Assembly (NCBI RefSeq): GCF_014042015.1
Contig: NZ_CP059493.1
Location: 992,001 to 1,056,000, forward strand
Length of the DNA stretch: 64,000 nucleotides
Reading direction: 5' to 3'
Origin: Actinotalea sp. JY-7876
GTDB taxonomy: Bacteria > Actinomycetota > Actinomycetes > Actinomycetales > Cellulomonadaceae
Shown here: in pieces, positions 31,761 to 43,963 of the stretch
How positions within the stretch are numbered: position 1 is the stretch's first letter
Layout: every line of letters begins with the position of its first letter
Made by a program: the position numbers and the translations under genes
Notes under the pieces: generated by a model
Told to the model about the DNA's origin: nothing
Database searches by the model: none
The model's input: only the letters and a program-made list of their open reading frames with translations

Positions 31761-33209
31761 TCAGGGCGCCGGGAGCGTGAGCACGGCCCGCAGGCCGCCT
31801 GCCGCGGCCTCGCCCAGGACGACGTCCCCGCCGTGGTCGCGCGCGACCTCGCGCGCGATCGGCAGCCCGAGCCCGCTGCCACCCGCGTCCCGCTCGCGCG
31901 CGGCCGCGAGGCGCACGAAGCGCTCGAACACCCGCTCGCGCGCCTCCTGCGGCACGCCCGGCCCGTCGTCGTCGACCACGACCTCGCCGGCCGCGACGGT
32001 GACCGTCACCTGCGACGCCGCGTGGCGCAGCGCGTTGTCGAGGAGGTTGCGCACCACGCGCGCGACGGCTGGCCCGTCGCCGAGGGCCCGGCCCTCGCCC
32101 TCGACGACCACCTCGACCCGGTCCGCGTCCCGCGCCGCCGCGCGGGCCACCGCGAGGCCGTCCGCCACCGCGCCGCGCAGGTCGACGACGCCCCGGGCGG
32201 GGCTCGTCGAGCCGACCCGGGCGAGGAGCAGGAGGTCGTCGACCAGGTGCTGCAGCCGCAGGACCTCTCCCGCGAGCTCGTCGGCGAGCTCGCCCGGAGC
32301 GTAGGACCCCGGGTGCTCGCGCGCGACGTCGACGGCCGCGCGCAGCGCGGCGATCGGCGACCTGAGCTCGTGCGCCGCGTCGGCGACGAACGTCCGCTGG
32401 CGCGCGGCGGCGCCCTCCAGCCGGTCGAGCATGTCGTTGAGCGTCCGCGCGAGCGCACCGATCTCGTCGTCCGCCCGCACGACCGGCAGGGACCCGGGGC
32501 CGCCGGTGCGCGCGACCTGCTCGGCGGCGCGGCGCAGCGCCTCGACCGGTGCCAGGACCCGGCCCAGCACCACCCAGATGACGCCCCCGAGCAGCAGCGT
32601 GAGGAGCGGGACGACCCCGCCCAGCGCGACGGCGAGCGCGCGCAGGAGGCCCTGCACCTCGGCCAGCGGCACGCTGACCACCACGCTCACGGGCGCGCCG
32701 CCCAGCTCGGCGGGCACGACGGCGACGCGCGCGGCCGCGTCGTACGCGCTCGCATCGGTCACCACGACGCGCACGCCGGCGCCGACGTCCTCGGCGGCGT
32801 CGCCCTCCGCGTCGCCCTCCGCGCCGGAGCGAGCCGACGCGGCGCGCAGGCGGTCCAGCTCGTCGCGCGGCAGGACCGGCAGCGTTCGGCTGGCGGTGGA
32901 CGACGTGGCCACCACGCGCCCCTCGGCGTCGAGGACCTGCGCGATCTCGCCCGGCTCGGCGACCGGCAGGGGGTCGGGCAGGCGGTCGTCGGCGACGAGG
33001 ACCAGGAGCGTCGCGGCGCGCGCGCGGACCGCCGCGTCGAGCTCGGCGACGCGCTCGCGCGACAGCACGGTCGTCAGCAGGACGGCGCCGACGACGAGGG
33101 TCACGCACAGCAGGCCGGACGTCAGCAGCGTCAGGCGCAGCCGCAGCGACAGGCCGCGCCGCTGCCCGCGGGGGGCGGGCGCGCCCACCCCGGGAGGGCC
33201 GGGGCTCAC
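31761..33209 (-). CDS. sensor histidine kinase
   Basis: A 482-residue membrane sensor. Helix 1 (about residues 22-45, TLLTSGLLCVTLVVGAVLLTTV) and helix 2 (about 190-215) bracket an extracellular domain with an Ala/Glu/Asp-rich insert (SGAEGDAEGDAAED). A HAMP linker follows, then the phosphoacceptor FVADAAHELRSPIAALR near 268, N-box NLLDNALRHA, G1 VDDDGPGVP and G2 GSGLGLPIA. The GTG start overlaps the response-regulator stop as GTGA at 33206-33209, so the pair is translationally coupled. The stimulus is unknown; neighbours suggest cell-envelope stress. Confidence 0.92.
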   Translation of the reverse strand: MSPGPPGVGAPAPRGQRRGLSLRLRLTLLTSGLLCVTLVVGAVLLTTVLSRERVAELDAAVRARAATLLVLVADDRLPDPLPVAEPGEIAQVLDAEGRVVATSSTASRTLPVLPRDELDRLRAASARSGAEGDAEGDAAEDVGAGVRVVVTDASAYDAAARVAVVPAELGGAPVSVVVSVPLAEVQGLLRALAVALGGVVPLLTLLLGGVIWVVLGRVLAPVEALRRAAEQVARTGGPGSLPVVRADDEIGALARTLNDMLDRLEGAAARQRTFVADAAHELRSPIAALRAAVDVAREHPGSYAPGELADELAGEVLRLQHLVDDLLLLARVGSTSPARGVVDLRGAVADGLAVARAAARDADRVEVVVEGEGRALGDGPAVARVVRNLLDNALRHAASQVTVTVAAGEVVVDDDGPGVPQEARERVFERFVRLAAARERDAGGSGLGLPIAREVARDHGGDVVLGEAAAGGLRAVLTLPAP

Positions 33210-33859
33210 CCGGCGACCCGGTAGCCCGCGCCCCGCACGGTCGTCACCGCCGACCGGCCGAGCTTGCGCCGCAGGTAGCCCACGTAGACCTCGACGACGT
33301 TGAGGTCCTCGCCCGAGCCGTCCCAGACGTGGTCGCGCAGCTCGACCTTGCCGACGACGCGGTCGGCGTGGCGCATCAGGTACTCGAGCAGGGCCAGCTC
33401 CCTGGTGGTGAGCGCGACCGGCCGGCCCGCGAGCGTCACCGTGCGGGCGGCGGGGTCGAGCTCCAGGCGGCCCGCCGTCAGCACCGCGGGACGGGCGCCG
33501 GCCGGGCGGCGCACGAGGGCGCGCAGCCGAGCGACCAGCACGACGAAGGAGAACGGCTTGGTGAGGTAGTCGTCGGCGCCGACGTCCAGGCCGTCGGCGA
33601 CGTCGTGCTCGCCGTCCTTGGCCGACAGCATGAGGACGGGTGTCCAGACGCCGAGCCCGCGCAGCGCCGTCACGACGTCGTAGCCGTTGCGCCGCGGCAG
33701 CATGACGTCCAGGACGATCGCGTCGTACTCGGTGCCGGACGCGAGCTCCAGCCCGGCGTCGCCGTCGTGCGCGACGTCGACCGCGAAGCCCTCCGCCTCG
33801 AGGCCGCGGCGCACGGCACGCGTGAGCGCGACCTCGTCGTCGACCACCAGCACGCGCAT
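33206..33859 (-). CDS. OmpR-family response regulator
   Basis: A 217-residue regulator. The receiver domain has the acidic pair VVDDE, the phosphoacceptor Asp in IVLDVMLPRRNGYD near residue 51, a Ser-type switch in LMLSAKD and Lys in LTKPFSF. The winged-helix effector contains LTTRELALLEYLMRHADRVVGKVELRDHVW and ends TTVRGAGYRVAG. It is divergent from a LolA-like/ABC transporter operon across 81 bp that hold two CTCAG half-sites 11 bp apart, the spacing expected for an OmpR-type dimer bound to direct repeats. Confidence 0.93.
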   Translation of the reverse strand: MRVLVVDDEVALTRAVRRGLEAEGFAVDVAHDGDAGLELASGTEYDAIVLDVMLPRRNGYDVVTALRGLGVWTPVLMLSAKDGEHDVADGLDVGADDYLTKPFSFVVLVARLRALVRRPAGARPAVLTAGRLELDPAARTVTLAGRPVALTTRELALLEYLMRHADRVVGKVELRDHVWDGSGEDLNVVEVYVGYLRRKLGRSAVTTVRGAGYRVAG

Positions 33860-33899
33860 GGGGGCAGCATGCCACCGGCCCCGGGGCCCGGGGCCGGCG

Positions 33900-33918
33900 C
33901 TCTCAGCGTCCTCTCAGG
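33900..33918 (+). promoter_or_regulatory. 19-bp direct-repeat element (CTCAG, 11-bp period), candidate response-regulator box A
   Basis: CTCTCAG occurs at 33900-33906 and again at 33911-33917, exactly one helical turn apart, in the divergent region between the response regulator and the LolA-like gene. It matches the element at 42385-42403 in 15 of 19 positions. Confidence 0.55.
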
Positions 33919-33940
33919 CCGCGGGGCGCACGATGGTCAC

Positions 33941-35218
33941 ATGAGCCAGCCGACCGTTCCCGCACCCGACGTCGCCGACACCCCCCGCAGCGCCCGGCGC
34001 CGCTGGGCCGTCCCGGCCGTGGTCGCCGCCGGCGCCGCCCTCGCCTTCGCCGCGCCGCCCCTGCTCGCGTCCGCGGGCGAGGAGGGCCTGCCCGAGGTCA
34101 CCGCCGAGGAGCTCCTGGCAGCGGTCGCCTCGGCCGAGCCGCAGGCGCTGTCCGGCACCGTGGTCTACACCGCGCGCCTGGGGCTGCCGGAGATCCCGTT
34201 CGCCGAGGCGGGCGGCGCGGACCCGATCGCGCTGCTGGGCGGCAGCTCGACGCTGCGGGTGTGGACCGACGGCGACGACCGCTCGCGCGTCGCCCTGCTC
34301 GGTGCGACGTCGGAGTACTCGGTCGTCCGTGACGGACCCGAGGCGTGGACCTACTCGAGCGAGGACGACGAGGTCGTGCACTACGGCCTCAGCGAGGCGG
34401 ACGCAGCCCGCTACGAGGCCCTGGCGCAGCAGGTCGAGGCGGGACCGTCGCCCGAGGTCGCCGGCGACCTCCCGACGCCGCAGGAGGCGGCGGCCCAGGT
34501 GCTCGCGTACGCCGAGGAGTCCTCGACGGTGTCGGTCGACGGCACCACGACGATCGCCGGCCGCGGCGCCTACCAGCTGGTCGTGACGCCGCGCACGCAG
34601 GACACGCTCGTCGCCCGCGTGGTCGTCGGCGTGGACGCCGAGACGTCCACGCCGCTGCGCGTGCAGGCGTGGAGCACCCAGGACGACGCGGCCCCGGCCC
34701 TCGAGGTCGGCTTCACCGACCTCGACCTCGGCGCGCCGGACGACGCCGTGCTCGCGTTCTCGCCGCCCGCGGGGGCCCAGCAGCGCGACGTCGTCGTGCC
34801 GCTGCCGGTGCCGGACGAGGCGGCCCTGCCCGGTGCCGACGCGCCGGAGCACGCGGACGTGGCGACGGAGCACCCGGACGTGACCGTGCACGGCAGCGGC
34901 TGGGCGAGCGTGGCCGAGGTCGCCGGCGTCGACGTCGCGTCGCTCGTGGCGGGCGACCCCGCCGCGCTCGCGACGCTGCCCGAGGGGGAGCGCACGATCG
35001 GCTCGCCGGAGGCGCAGGAGCTGCTCCAGGAGTTCGAGCCCGGCGACGGCTCGGGCGGCGGCTTCGAGCTCGACCCCCAGGCGCTCTACGACCAGCTCAC
35101 GACCGAGGTGCCCGAGGGGCGGCTGCTGTCCTCGGCGCTGCTGAGCGTGCTCGTCACCCACGACGGCCGCGTGCTCGTCGGCGCGGTCCCGGCCGACACC
35201 CTGCGCGCCCTCGCCTGA
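33941..35218 (+). CDS. LolA-like / DUF2092-type exported protein
   Basis: A 425-residue extracytoplasmic protein. A signal-anchor RRWAVPAVVAAGAALAFAAPPLLASAGEE occupies about residues 20-48. The rest resembles the open beta-barrel of LolA-type lipid carriers: PEVTAEELLAAVASAEPQALSGTVVYTARLGLPEI, then VWTDGDDRSRVALLGATSEYSVVRDG and the strand-rich half with GRGAYQLVVTPRT. A role as lipoprotein or lipid carrier in a Gram-positive is not proven. It is the first gene of a three-gene operon with the ABC genes (its stop overlaps the next start as TGATG) and is divergent from the two-component system that may control it. Confidence 0.8.
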   Translation: MSQPTVPAPDVADTPRSARRRWAVPAVVAAGAALAFAAPPLLASAGEEGLPEVTAEELLAAVASAEPQALSGTVVYTARLGLPEIPFAEAGGADPIALLGGSSTLRVWTDGDDRSRVALLGATSEYSVVRDGPEAWTYSSEDDEVVHYGLSEADAARYEALAQQVEAGPSPEVAGDLPTPQEAAAQVLAYAEESSTVSVDGTTTIAGRGAYQLVVTPRTQDTLVARVVVGVDAETSTPLRVQAWSTQDDAAPALEVGFTDLDLGAPDDAVLAFSPPAGAQQRDVVVPLPVPDEAALPGADAPEHADVATEHPDVTVHGSGWASVAEVAGVDVASLVAGDPAALATLPEGERTIGSPEAQELLQEFEPGDGSGGGFELDPQALYDQLTTEVPEGRLLSSALLSVLVTHDGRVLVGAVPADTLRALA

Positions 35219-36240
35219 TGGCGACCACGCTCGCGCCGGCCACCGCGCCGGCGACCGGGTCCGTCATGCTGGCGGACGTGGACCACGCCGTGCGCACCGT
35301 CGGCCTGACCAAGCGCTTCCGCTCGGGTCAGGTCGCGGTCGACGGCATCGACCTGGAGGTCCCGCGGGGCTCGGTCTACGGCTTCCTCGGGCCCAACGGG
35401 TCGGGCAAGACGACGACCATCCGGATGCTGCTCGGCCTGGTGCGGCCGACGGGCGGCCGGGCCTGGTTGCTGGGCGCGCCGATGCCGGACGGCGCCGCGG
35501 CGGTCCTGCCGCGCGTGGGGGTGCTCGTCGAGGGGCCCGCGTTCCAGCCCTACCTGGGTGGCGCGGCCAACCTCGCGCGCCTGGACGCGAGCGACGCGAC
35601 GGCCGACCCGCGCACGTCGCGGGCGCGGGTGGGCGCGGCGCTCGAGCGGGTGGGGCTCTCGGCCGCCGCGCGCAAGCCGTACCGCCAGTACTCGCTCGGC
35701 ATGAAGCAGCGCCTCGGTCTCGCGGCGGCGCTGCTGCGGCCGCGTGACCTGCTCGTGCTCGACGAGCCGACGAACGGGCTGGACCCGCAGGGCACGCGCG
35801 AGGTCCGCCACCTCGTGCGCGAGCTCGCCGACGCGGGCACGACGGTGCTGGTCTCCTCGCACCTGCTCGCCGAGATCGAGCAGGTCTGCTCGCACATCGG
35901 GATCATGAGCCGCGGGCGCCTGCTCGCCCAGGGCGAGCGCAGCGCGCTGACGGACGCGCGGCCCGCCCGGGTCGTGGTGACGACGACGTCGGCCGCGGCC
36001 GAGCGCGCGGCGGCGGTGCTCGCCGGCCTCGGGACGACCGACGTCGTGCGGGACACAGGGCTCGACGCCGGGCAGCGGCGCGAGGCCGTGCTCGACGCGG
36101 CGCTCGGCGTCGCGCCCGAGCGGGTCGCCGCGGCGCTCGTGGCCGCCGACGTGCCGCTGATCGGGCTCGAGGTACGGCGGGCCAGCCTCGAGCAGCTGTT
36201 CGTCACGCTGACCGGGGAGGGCTTCGATGTCGCCCGCTGA
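35218..36240 (+). CDS. ABC-2 type transporter ATP-binding protein
   Basis: A 340-residue ATPase. It has Walker A FLGPNGSGKTTTIRMLLGL near residue 60, signature region YSLGMKQRLGLA near 160, Walker B LLVLDEPTNGLDPQG near 180 and H-loop VSSHLLAEIEQV. The C-terminal extension of about 90 residues ends SLEQLFVTLTGE, as in CcmA/NatA-type exporters. It powers the permease encoded next, with which it overlaps by 14 bp. The ATG overlaps the stop of the LolA-like gene, so all three are co-translated. A lantibiotic-immunity or lipid-export function is plausible in this setting, but the substrate is unknown. Confidence 0.92.
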   Translation: MATTLAPATAPATGSVMLADVDHAVRTVGLTKRFRSGQVAVDGIDLEVPRGSVYGFLGPNGSGKTTTIRMLLGLVRPTGGRAWLLGAPMPDGAAAVLPRVGVLVEGPAFQPYLGGAANLARLDASDATADPRTSRARVGAALERVGLSAAARKPYRQYSLGMKQRLGLAAALLRPRDLLVLDEPTNGLDPQGTREVRHLVRELADAGTTVLVSSHLLAEIEQVCSHIGIMSRGRLLAQGERSALTDARPARVVVTTTSAAAERAAAVLAGLGTTDVVRDTGLDAGQRREAVLDAALGVAPERVAAALVAADVPLIGLEVRRASLEQLFVTLTGEGFDVAR

Positions 36241-37135
36241 GGTGCCGGTGGTCGAGGCGTCGGTGGGCCCGGCGCCCGTGGTCGCGGGCGCGGGCGCGCC
36301 CGGACGCCCGGTGCGCGGCGCCTTCGGCCGGCTGCTCCGCAGCGAGCTGCGGCTCGTCTTCGGGCGGCGCCGCAACATCGCCCTGCTCGTCGGCCTCTCG
36401 CTCGTGCCGCTGCTCCTCGGGCTCGTCCTGTACGTCACGCGCGACTCCGCGATCGGCGGCCAGGGCCCCGGCTTCCTCGACCGGGTGACGGGCAACGGCC
36501 TCTTCCTGGTCGTGGCGGCGCTGTTCATGTGCCTGCCCTTCCTGCTGCCCCTGACCGCGGGCATCGCGTCCGGCGACGCGATCGCCGGCGAGGCGCAGGC
36601 CGGCACGCTGCGCTACCTGCTCGCGGTGCCCGTCTCGCGCGCGCGCCTGCTCGGCGTCAAGGCGCTCGCGACCCTCGCCTTCGTCACGGCCGCGGTGCTC
36701 GCGATCGCGCTGGTGGCGTTCGTGGTCGGCGCCGCGCTGTTCGGCGTCACCGACGTCACGCTGCTCTCGGGCACGACGGTGCCGGTGGCCGACGGGATCG
36801 CGCGCATCACCGGTGTCGCGCTCTACGTGGCGCTCTCGCTGACGGGGCTCGTCGCCGTCGGCCTGTTCCTGTCGACGCTGACGGAGGTGCCGGTCGGCGC
36901 GATGGCCGCGACCGTCGTCGTCGCGATCGTCTCGGCCGTCCTGGACACGCTGCCGCAGCTCGCGGCCATCCACCCGGGGCTGCTCACCCACCACTGGCTG
37001 GACTTCGCCGAGTTCCTGCGCGTCCAGGTCGACTGGGGCGTGCTGGGGCAGGGCATGGCGGTGCAGGCCGTGTGGGTGGCGATCTTCGGCTCCCTCGCGT
37101 GGAGCAGGTTCACGACGGCGGACGTGACGTCCTGA
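36227..37135 (+). CDS. ABC-2 type transporter permease
   Basis: A 302-residue membrane protein with about six helices. The cytoplasmic start RGAFGRLLRSELRLVFGRRRNIALLVGLSLVPLLLGLVLYV leads into helix 1, and EAQAGTLRYLLAVPVSRARLLGVKALATLAF matches the ABC-2 coupling region. It partners the ATPase encoded immediately upstream with a 14-bp overlap. Its 3' end overlaps the convergent antiporter gene by 26 bp, so the two transcripts must be antisense to each other there. Confidence 0.88.
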   Translation: MSPAEVPVVEASVGPAPVVAGAGAPGRPVRGAFGRLLRSELRLVFGRRRNIALLVGLSLVPLLLGLVLYVTRDSAIGGQGPGFLDRVTGNGLFLVVAALFMCLPFLLPLTAGIASGDAIAGEAQAGTLRYLLAVPVSRARLLGVKALATLAFVTAAVLAIALVAFVVGAALFGVTDVTLLSGTTVPVADGIARITGVALYVALSLTGLVAVGLFLSTLTEVPVGAMAATVVVAIVSAVLDTLPQLAAIHPGLLTHHWLDFAEFLRVQVDWGVLGQGMAVQAVWVAIFGSLAWSRFTTADVTS

Positions 37136-42384: not shown

Positions 42385-42403
42385 GGCTCAGGGTCATCTC
42401 AGG
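42385..42403 (+). promoter_or_regulatory. 19-bp direct-repeat element, candidate response-regulator box B
   Basis: CTCAG at 42387-42391 and 42398-42402, 11 bp apart, within a stretch that matches box A at 33900-33918 in 15 of 19 bases. It lies about 115 bp before the DUF2807 lipoprotein gene, the expected promoter zone. Confidence 0.5.
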
Positions 42404-42517
42404 GGTCAGTGGGGGGAGAACCCGATGCCGCGGGTGGTGCCGCGCTGCCAGGCTCGACCTGCCCGGGACGGGCGACCGGGCCCCGACGGCGGGCCGGGCC
42501 GACAGACAGAGGACGAC

Positions 42518-43234
42518 ATGACAGCGTGCAGGACCTTCAGCATCACGACCGGCGTCATCACGGCAGGCCTGCTCCTGGGGGCGTGCGGGATCGGCTTCGG
42601 CGGCGACCGGACGACCGAGGACAGGGACGTCGACGGGCTCGCGGAGGTGACGGCCGTCTCGCTCGAGACCTCGGGCGACCTCGTGATCGAGCTCGGCGAG
42701 GAGACGTCCCTCACCGTGACCGCCGGGGACCGGGTCATGGACCGGCTCACGAGCGAGGTCCGCGACGGCGTCCTGGTCCTGGGCTCGAACGACGGCGTGA
42801 ACGTGACGGGTGACATCGACTACCAGCTCGTGCTGAGCGCGCTCGACGCGATCCGCGTGCTCGGGTCCGGCGACGTCGAGGCGGGCGCCGCCACGGCCGA
42901 GAGCCTGACCGTCGAGGTGCGGGGTTCCGGGGACGTCACCGTCCACGACGTCGACGTGGAGGCGCTGGAGGTCGAGATCGAGGGTTCGGGGAACGTCGAG
43001 CTGAGCGGCGTCGCGCTGCGCCAGGTCACCACCATCCGCGGCTCCGGCGGCTTCGACGGGTCCTCGCTCGAGAGCGAGGACGCCGTGGTGGTGCTGGAGG
43101 GGTCGGGAGACGCCGAGGTCGACGTCTCCGACGCGCTCAGCGCGACGATCCGGGGCAGCGGCGACCTGACGTACACCGGCGGCGCCCAGGTCAGCGCCGA
43201 CGTCGAGGGCTCGGGCGAGGTCCGCGAGGGGTAG
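42518..43234 (+). CDS. DUF2807 (head-GIN) lipoprotein
   Basis: A 238-residue secreted lipoprotein. The signal TGVITAGLLLGAC ends in a lipobox Cys near residue 19. The mature part is a DUF2807 beta-helix with seven repeats of the turn Gly-Ser-Gly-(Asp/Asn/Gly/Glu): LGSGDV, RGSGDV, EGSGNV, RGSGGF, EGSGDA, RGSGDL, EGSGEV. Function in the family is unknown; an envelope adhesin or sensor is possible. AGAGGA precedes the ATG. A direct-repeat element matching that beside the two-component system lies in the promoter region, suggesting shared control. Confidence 0.87.
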   Translation: MTACRTFSITTGVITAGLLLGACGIGFGGDRTTEDRDVDGLAEVTAVSLETSGDLVIELGEETSLTVTAGDRVMDRLTSEVRDGVLVLGSNDGVNVTGDIDYQLVLSALDAIRVLGSGDVEAGAATAESLTVEVRGSGDVTVHDVDVEALEVEIEGSGNVELSGVALRQVTTIRGSGGFDGSSLESEDAVVVLEGSGDAEVDVSDALSATIRGSGDLTYTGGAQVSADVEGSGEVREG

Positions 43235-43870: not shown

Positions 43871-43886
43871 CTCGTGGTGCATCTTC

Positions 43887-43920
43887 TGCAAAACTGCATC
43901 AGTTGCGAAGTTGCAGCAAC
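43887..43920. promoter_or_regulatory. candidate TetR operator cluster
   Basis: Contains a perfect 11-bp palindrome GTTGC-A-GCAAC (43910-43920), two direct AGTTGC copies (43901 and 43909) and two TGCA cores (43887 and 43895), between the divergent tetR and efflux genes. Confidence 0.45.
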
Positions 43921-43963
43921 CGCAAAAACGCGCGTACCGTGGCGGCTCACCCCGAGGAGATCC

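Follow-up and report, generated by a model that had tools for sequence, protein, structure and literature searches.

Genes and Repeats in the Window

The stretch of Actinotalea sp. JY-7876 DNA analyzed here, 64,000 nt long and referred to below as the window, carries a gene for an OmpR/PhoB-type response regulator (33206–33859, minus strand; 217 aa, helix NVVEVYVGYLRRKL), in which Pfam finds both a receiver domain (Response_reg, PF00072, 93.8 bits) and a winged helix (Trans_reg_C, PF00486, 72.3 bits). The OmpR-type DNA-binding domain has eight matches in the source genome. Beside the regulator gene and on the same strand lies a sensor histidine kinase gene (31761–33209), with HAMP, HisKA, and HATPase domains in Pfam. 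Divergent from both, on the plus strand, are genes for an exported LolA/RseB-like protein of 425 aa (33941–35218), an ABC transporter ATPase (35218–36240; Pfam ABC_tran), and an ABC-2 type permease (36227–37135; Pfam ABC2_membrane_2 and ABC2_membrane_4). The likeness of the exported protein to LolA and RseB is weak. It has no Pfam family at a threshold of 0.001 and reaches 19.2 bits with the NCBIfam model LolA1, for which the cut-off is 100; among 26 members of its own family, LolA_like was detected in three (best E 0.0043) and MucB_RseB in two (best E 0.0033). A profile search of solved structures returned PsbX as the sole match (E 0.038), which is meaningless, and the nearest named relative found is from Actinotalea solisilvae (79%). 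In PADLOC, only the ABC ATPase gave matches, to models of the ATPase type.

Two 19-bp boxes in the window had been proposed as targets of this regulator. Box A (33900–33918, plus strand), in the intergenic region that separates the regulator gene from the LolA-like gene, reads CTCTCAGCGTCCTCTCAGG and contains CTCAG at 33902–33906 and again at 33913–33917, an 11-bp direct repeat. Box B, as delimited in the original prediction (42385–42403, plus strand), reads GGCTCAGGGTCATCTCAGG. The existence of both boxes, the identity of 15 of their 19 bases, and the 11-bp distance between CTCAG starts in each were confirmed by exact match. Box B precedes a plus-strand gene (42518–43234) for a DUF2807 ("Toastrack") lipoprotein of 238 aa (Pfam DUF2807, 112.2 bits against a cut-off of 24.2), with a lipobox, LLGAC, recognized by eye. 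Farther along, the interval 43880–43930 holds the palindrome GTTGCAGCAAC (43910–43920), a possible operator, between a TetR-like regulator gene, so judged by eye (no Pfam match for the stretch tested), and a divergent transporter-like gene.

Within the window, CTCAG-N6-CTCAG occurs twice where 0.11 matches are expected, and none of 100 dinucleotide shuffles contained two or more; allowing one mismatch recovers the same two sites alone, against 4.2 expected. The genome scan suggested in the original prediction showed no clear excess of the bare pattern, with three exact matches in all 3,546,809 bases of the genome, a single contig, and two for the reversed control pattern. The third match (L003) lies inside a coding sequence whose product appears by eye to be a penicillin-binding protein. 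Across 59 genomes, source genome included, the counts were 330 for the pattern and 174 for the control. The bare pattern was therefore rejected as a way of defining a regulon, which leaves conservation as the evidence to go by. Most of the 15/19 likeness between the two boxes comes from a common TCAG core with an 11-bp period.

Conservation and Promoter Geometry of Box A

Box A is kept in all 28 readable regulator/LolA-like intergenic regions, from 27 relatives and the window; one further locus (L013) was left out of the count, because the contig breaks off ahead of the gene start. The box is exact in 24 loci and has CACAG as the second half-site in four, and in all 28 the regulator start is divergent to the LolA-like gene. 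Box A stands 23 nt before the LolA-like ATG in 24 loci and 24 nt before it in the other four, whereas its distance to the regulator start varies from 24 to 83 nt, so the constraint acts on the LolA-like promoter. The consensus runs CTCTCAG-N6-CTCAG, a gap of 11 or 12 nt, an nACnGT-like hexamer, a further six nt or so, and ATG. In the window the predicted −10 element of the LolA-like operon is CACGAT (33929–33934, plus strand), 6 nt before the ATG, which implies a leaderless mRNA. In the 28-row alignment the second-place A and the final T of this hexamer are invariant, and the third-place C is nearly so. Because it is conserved in relatives, box A is far beyond chance, and it looks like an operator, predicted from sequence, that is tied to the adjacent OmpR-type regulator and the divergent LolA-like/ABC operon. 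Box A may also act on the divergent regulator gene, but the spacing gives no indication of this. The regulator gene may be leaderless as well, with CATGCT six nt before its ATG (33857–33871, minus strand).

Close and remote LolA-like genes differ in whether they have the box. With a box A matrix built from the 27 relatives' sites, leaving out the window, 15 of the 16 close LolA-like genes (at least 53% identical, counting the window's) reach 12 bits or more; the start of the sixteenth is cut off by a contig end. Among remote LolA-like genes (about 38–48% identity), 13 of the 16 examined have no box A, those of G001 and G048 included. In one relative (G031, locus L199), more than one box-A-like CTCAG repeat stands in a row before the LolA-like homologue.

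A model of box A, −10 element, and ATG (R1; 28 training rows, including the window's own site) gives 41.7 bits at box A and at most 16.2 bits elsewhere in the source genome. Under strict filters (E up to 0.01), R1 has 22 matches in the 59 genomes, 17 of them beside LolA-like matches and none preceding a DUF2807 match. The remaining five score 18.7–21.0 bits. In G036 the match precedes another OmpR-type regulator, and in G007 a gene for what looks by eye like a glycosyltransferase; in G035 only the −10/ATG part matches, before a small unknown gene, and the matches in G018 and G016 have no clear target. On this distribution, a box A regulon extending beyond its own operon was rejected.

One of the OmpR-type paralogues in the source genome (C1:628148–628396, minus strand) has CTCAG-N6-CCCAG followed by AGACT-GGAGCC-ATG in its own promoter (L058), by eye a box-A-like layout, and the G036 regulator, which is similar to this paralogue, has CTCAG-N6-CTCAG in the same layout (L201). 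The half-site may thus be common to a family of regulators, and cross-talk on box A from the C1:628148 paralogue is possible.

Box B as Part of an 11-bp Ladder

The DUF2807 promoters of relatives are mostly without CTCAG-N6-CTCAG; by eye, many carry units resembling TCAGGG at 11-bp intervals, with CCCGAT or CCCCAT at the end. In the window, the corresponding ladder spans 42388–42426 (plus strand), its rungs starting 11 bp apart: TCAGGG (42388–42393), TCAGGG (42399–42404), a degenerate TGGGGG (42410–42415), and CCCGAT (42421–42426). The conserved form of box B is an 11-bp ladder, TCAGGG-N5-TCAGGG, ending in CCCGAT. Read from the sequence, the probable −10 element of the DUF2807 gene is CAGGCT (42449–42454, plus strand), 22 nt after CCCGAT.

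A looser pattern, TCAG-N7-TCAGG, has 14 matches in the source genome, which by eye mostly fall within genes or at their ends, against 7 for its control, and this search pointed to a locus at C1:2826727 that carries the same ladder as box B. The exact dyad TCAGGG-N5-TCAGGG occurs in the source genome at these two sites alone, with no match to the control. The second dyad lies between a PspC-domain histidine kinase/LuxR-type regulator system (C1:2824652–2826663, with the LuxR-type regulator at C1:2824652–2825326; about 1.8 Mb from box B) and a divergent gene with PspC and LiaF-like parts, assigned by Pfam in the source genome only. A similar ladder, with one rung fewer than at DUF2807, is present in 28 PspC-kinase promoters, and by eye several PspC promoters have hexamers similar to the window's −10 element about 22–23 nt after CCCGAT.

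Across the 59 genomes the exact dyad has 143 matches against 14 for the control. Counting one kinase place per genome and leaving out weaker further matches, 41 of 56 PspC-kinase genes, the source genome's included, have it in the 600 nt upstream of them, on the opposite strand in all 41; the other 15 lack an exact dyad. For split genes the N-terminal piece was used or the pieces were merged (e.g., in G019, G047, G024, G051, and G054). The same distance upstream of LolA-like genes holds no dyad at any of 38 matches (from 35 genomes), while 7 of 21 DUF2807 matches (6 of 20 genomes, G011 having two matches) are preceded by one, always on the gene's own strand. The three genomes with no kinase match have one exact dyad in G013 (fragmentary), one in G037, and none in G046, the last with two weak matches to the promoter model described below. 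TCAGGG-N5-TCAGGG is thus a predicted ladder operator at the divergent promoter of the PspC-kinase/LuxR-type system itself and at DUF2807 promoters. Judged from co-location, the putative reader of this ladder is the LuxR-type regulator.

Matrix scores separate the two boxes. A second matrix was built from 28 PspC promoters among the 30 loci loaded; L119 was left out, having three mismatches at best, as was L093, whose site is exact, and L050–L053, which are fragments or a duplicate, were not scored with either matrix. Box A scores 28.3 bits with the box A matrix and 7.4 with the PspC-promoter matrix, and box B scores 13.9 and 24.9, respectively, the latter value holding also when the source genome's PspC site is left out of training. 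When each training site was left out in turn, box A sites scored 9.0–30.9 bits and PspC sites 14.7–31.7, so that box B, with 13.9 as box A, outscores the weakest of the true box A sites (L005, 9.0). Apart from the two boxes, the maximum in the 64-kb window is 6.6 bits as box A and 8.7 as ladder. The relatives' DUF2807 promoters, the window's not counted, reach at least 10 bits with the PspC-promoter matrix in 12 of 17 cases and with the box A matrix in 2 of 17; by matrix, the other 5 are without a good ladder. One relative's promoter (2 of 18, counting the window's) reaches 13.9 or more as box A. The DUF2807 site of G008 is nearly equal in the two matrices (20.1 as box A, 20.2 as ladder). Five genomes (G001, G007, G015, G030, and G048) have a ladder before DUF2807 (17.0–27.3 bits) together with a remote LolA-like gene that lacks box A.

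A model made from the 28 PspC promoters and from no DUF2807 promoter (R2) has five matches in the source genome: the PspC-kinase promoter, itself a training row (31.4 bits), a site at C1:522679 (19.6), box B (15.6, E 0.067, with rungs one and two matched only), and two below 15. Of the 20 genomes that have a DUF2807 match, it reaches DUF2807 promoters in six (G015, G001, G007, G030, G009, and G005) and misses those of the other 14 at a cut-off of 0.02.

Other Predicted Ladder Targets

Twenty further ladder sites away from kinase and DUF2807 genes, 19 from relatives and one from the source genome, were picked for a closer look, as a chosen sample and not a census. Judged by eye from translations, the genes behind them encode small PspC proteins (six sites), ABC ATPases (nine), and, at one site each, an FtsX-type permease, DedA, YccF, an AI-2E-type transporter, and a TelA-like protein. 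As far as sequence can tell, the ladder targets look like an envelope-stress regulon. In the source genome the C1:522679 site (L237) is a third predicted target: it precedes a small PspC-like gene of 86 aa and has one mismatch in the first rung. In six relatives (L242, L244, L248, L249, L253, and L254), the ladder stands before what is by eye one conserved ABC ATPase gene. Counted from the opening base of the first rung, the apparent start codon of this gene follows after 63–64 nt in each of the six, which suggests that these are fixed-distance and perhaps leaderless promoters.

Two Predicted Operators and Their Alternatives

We consider it likely that the window contains the operators of two different two-component systems, box A belonging to the adjacent OmpR-type regulator and box B to the LuxR-type regulator of the PspC-kinase system. 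The positions, conservation, geometry, and co-location described above are observations; protein binding, phosphorylation, activation, and start sites are the parts supplied by the following model. The phosphorylated OmpR-type regulator encoded next door would bind box A head to tail. With the A of the ATG as the predicted start site, the box would span about −39 to −24 and replace the −35 element, and its occupancy would activate the leaderless LolA-like/ABC operon. Box B would supply rungs one and two of an operator built as an 11-bp ladder, to which the LuxR-type regulator of the PspC-kinase system would bind, switching on the DUF2807 lipoprotein gene and the divergent PspC-LiaF gene; the small PspC gene at C1:522679 would probably be switched on by the same regulator. 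Box B thus most likely places the DUF2807 lipoprotein in a Lia-like envelope-stress regulon.

The original prediction has the OmpR-type regulator acting at both boxes, so that the LolA-like/ABC operon and the DUF2807 gene come under the same control. The part concerning box A and its operon has held up, with conservation in 28 of 28 loci and a fixed promoter geometry. The part concerning DUF2807 has not, as the relatives' promoters reach 10 bits far more often as ladder than as box A (12/17 vs. 2/17), and a shared regulon is further weakened by the dyad, found upstream of 41/56 PspC-kinase genes and 0/38 LolA-like matches, and by R2, which ranks box B third of five in the source genome. That the boxes have 15 of 19 bases in common, lie 8.5 kb apart, and make up two of only three exact genomic matches, and that box B reaches 13.9 bits with the box A matrix, would fit one regulon; however, R1 places none of its 22 matches before DUF2807, and the promoter geometry of the two boxes differs, so that we now regard a single regulon as quite unlikely. 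An intermediate case is that box B receives dual input, with the unrelated winged-helix OmpR-type and LuxR-type regulators both reading the TCAG core in the same 11-bp phase. Box B retains both full CTCAG half-sites, and the G008 site scores equally well either way, as such an arrangement would have it, but these two are alone among 18 DUF2807 promoters in reaching 13.9 bits as box A. It is accordingly doubtful, though conceivable, that convergence has brought the two kinds of DNA-binding domain to the same TCAG core and 11-bp phase, making the box B and G008 promoters dual-input nodes; if true, dual-input DUF2807 promoters would join the LolA-like/ABC system to the Lia-like envelope-stress system.

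For box A itself, the main reader could be another OmpR-type regulator, such as C1:628148, instead of the adjacent one. The CTCAG-N6-CCCAG in that paralogue's own promoter, with its similar leaderless-looking layout by eye, and the CTCAG-N6-CTCAG of the similar G036 regulator speak for this, but in all 28 loci it is the adjacent regulator gene that box A accompanies, and we consider the substitution very improbable. The low genome count of the bare pattern, three against two for the control, would be expected of chance repeats in G+C-rich intergenic DNA, an explanation made almost untenable by conservation across genera with fixed spacing. Returning to the two-operator explanation, a 15/19 match between promoter boxes can evidently join two unrelated regulons on paper, a confusion exposed here by comparison across relatives.

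Comparison With Known Systems

PhoB-type operators (the pho box) and other direct repeats read by OmpR-family regulators have two half-sites with an 11-bp spacing, located some 11 nt upstream of the −10 element, where they replace the −35 element. Box A has the same spacing and placement; it differs in its CTCAG half-site, in the apparently leaderless mRNA, and in that its regulator is uncharacterized. By analogy, a layout with no separate −35 element would make box A an activator site of the PhoB kind. In mycobacteria, the MprA box, to which the original prediction likened the two boxes in style, is a direct repeat read by an actinobacterial OmpR-family regulator. The sequence of the M. tuberculosis MprA box did not appear in the accessible portions of the literature searched, PMC3388012 included, while the available part of another report gives the Corynebacterium glutamicum MprA motif as TKTTAAGAAM (PMC12113857), which differs from both box A and box B. 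The Streptomyces two-component regulator CutR, with envelope-related targets, binds TAWATAAA according to the accessible text of PMC12802291; this octamer is absent from both boxes, and the CutR regulon was set aside as a candidate. On CTCAG repeats and LolA-like two-component systems, nothing usable was found in the open literature searched. Box A thus offers a testable candidate operator for an uncharacterized actinobacterial LolA-like/ABC two-component system.

EsrISR of C. glutamicum and LiaFSR of Bacillus are envelope-stress systems in which a kinase and a regulator have PspC/LiaF partners, and the PspC-kinase system of the source genome likewise pairs kinase and regulator with such partners. 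A closer counterpart is the PspA-free Lia-like system of actinobacteria, for which the available part of PMC11237479 describes a kinase fused to PspC, a receiver-HTH partner, and a promoter common with a divergent PspC/Toastrack gene. The locus at C1:2824652–2828316 matches this layout in the kinase-PspC fusion, the partner, and the divergent promoter. One point of difference concerns location, in that an intracellular Toastrack is inferred in the accessible text of that work (PMC11237479), whereas the lipobox of the DUF2807 protein points to the outside. In the open literature searched on PspC, Esr, and Toastrack systems, as far as its text was accessible, no description of a TCAGGG ladder operator was found. 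The ladder would give the PspC-kinase (Lia-like) envelope-stress system of this order a sharply defined predicted operator, and the system's regulon would then be readable from sequence, taking in small PspC genes, Toastrack lipoproteins, ABC transporters, and DedA-, YccF-, and TelA-like genes. Whereas the available part of the earlier work describes gene neighborhoods and no operator (PMC11237479), the ladder described here also links a distant, stand-alone Toastrack lipoprotein to the Lia-like system.
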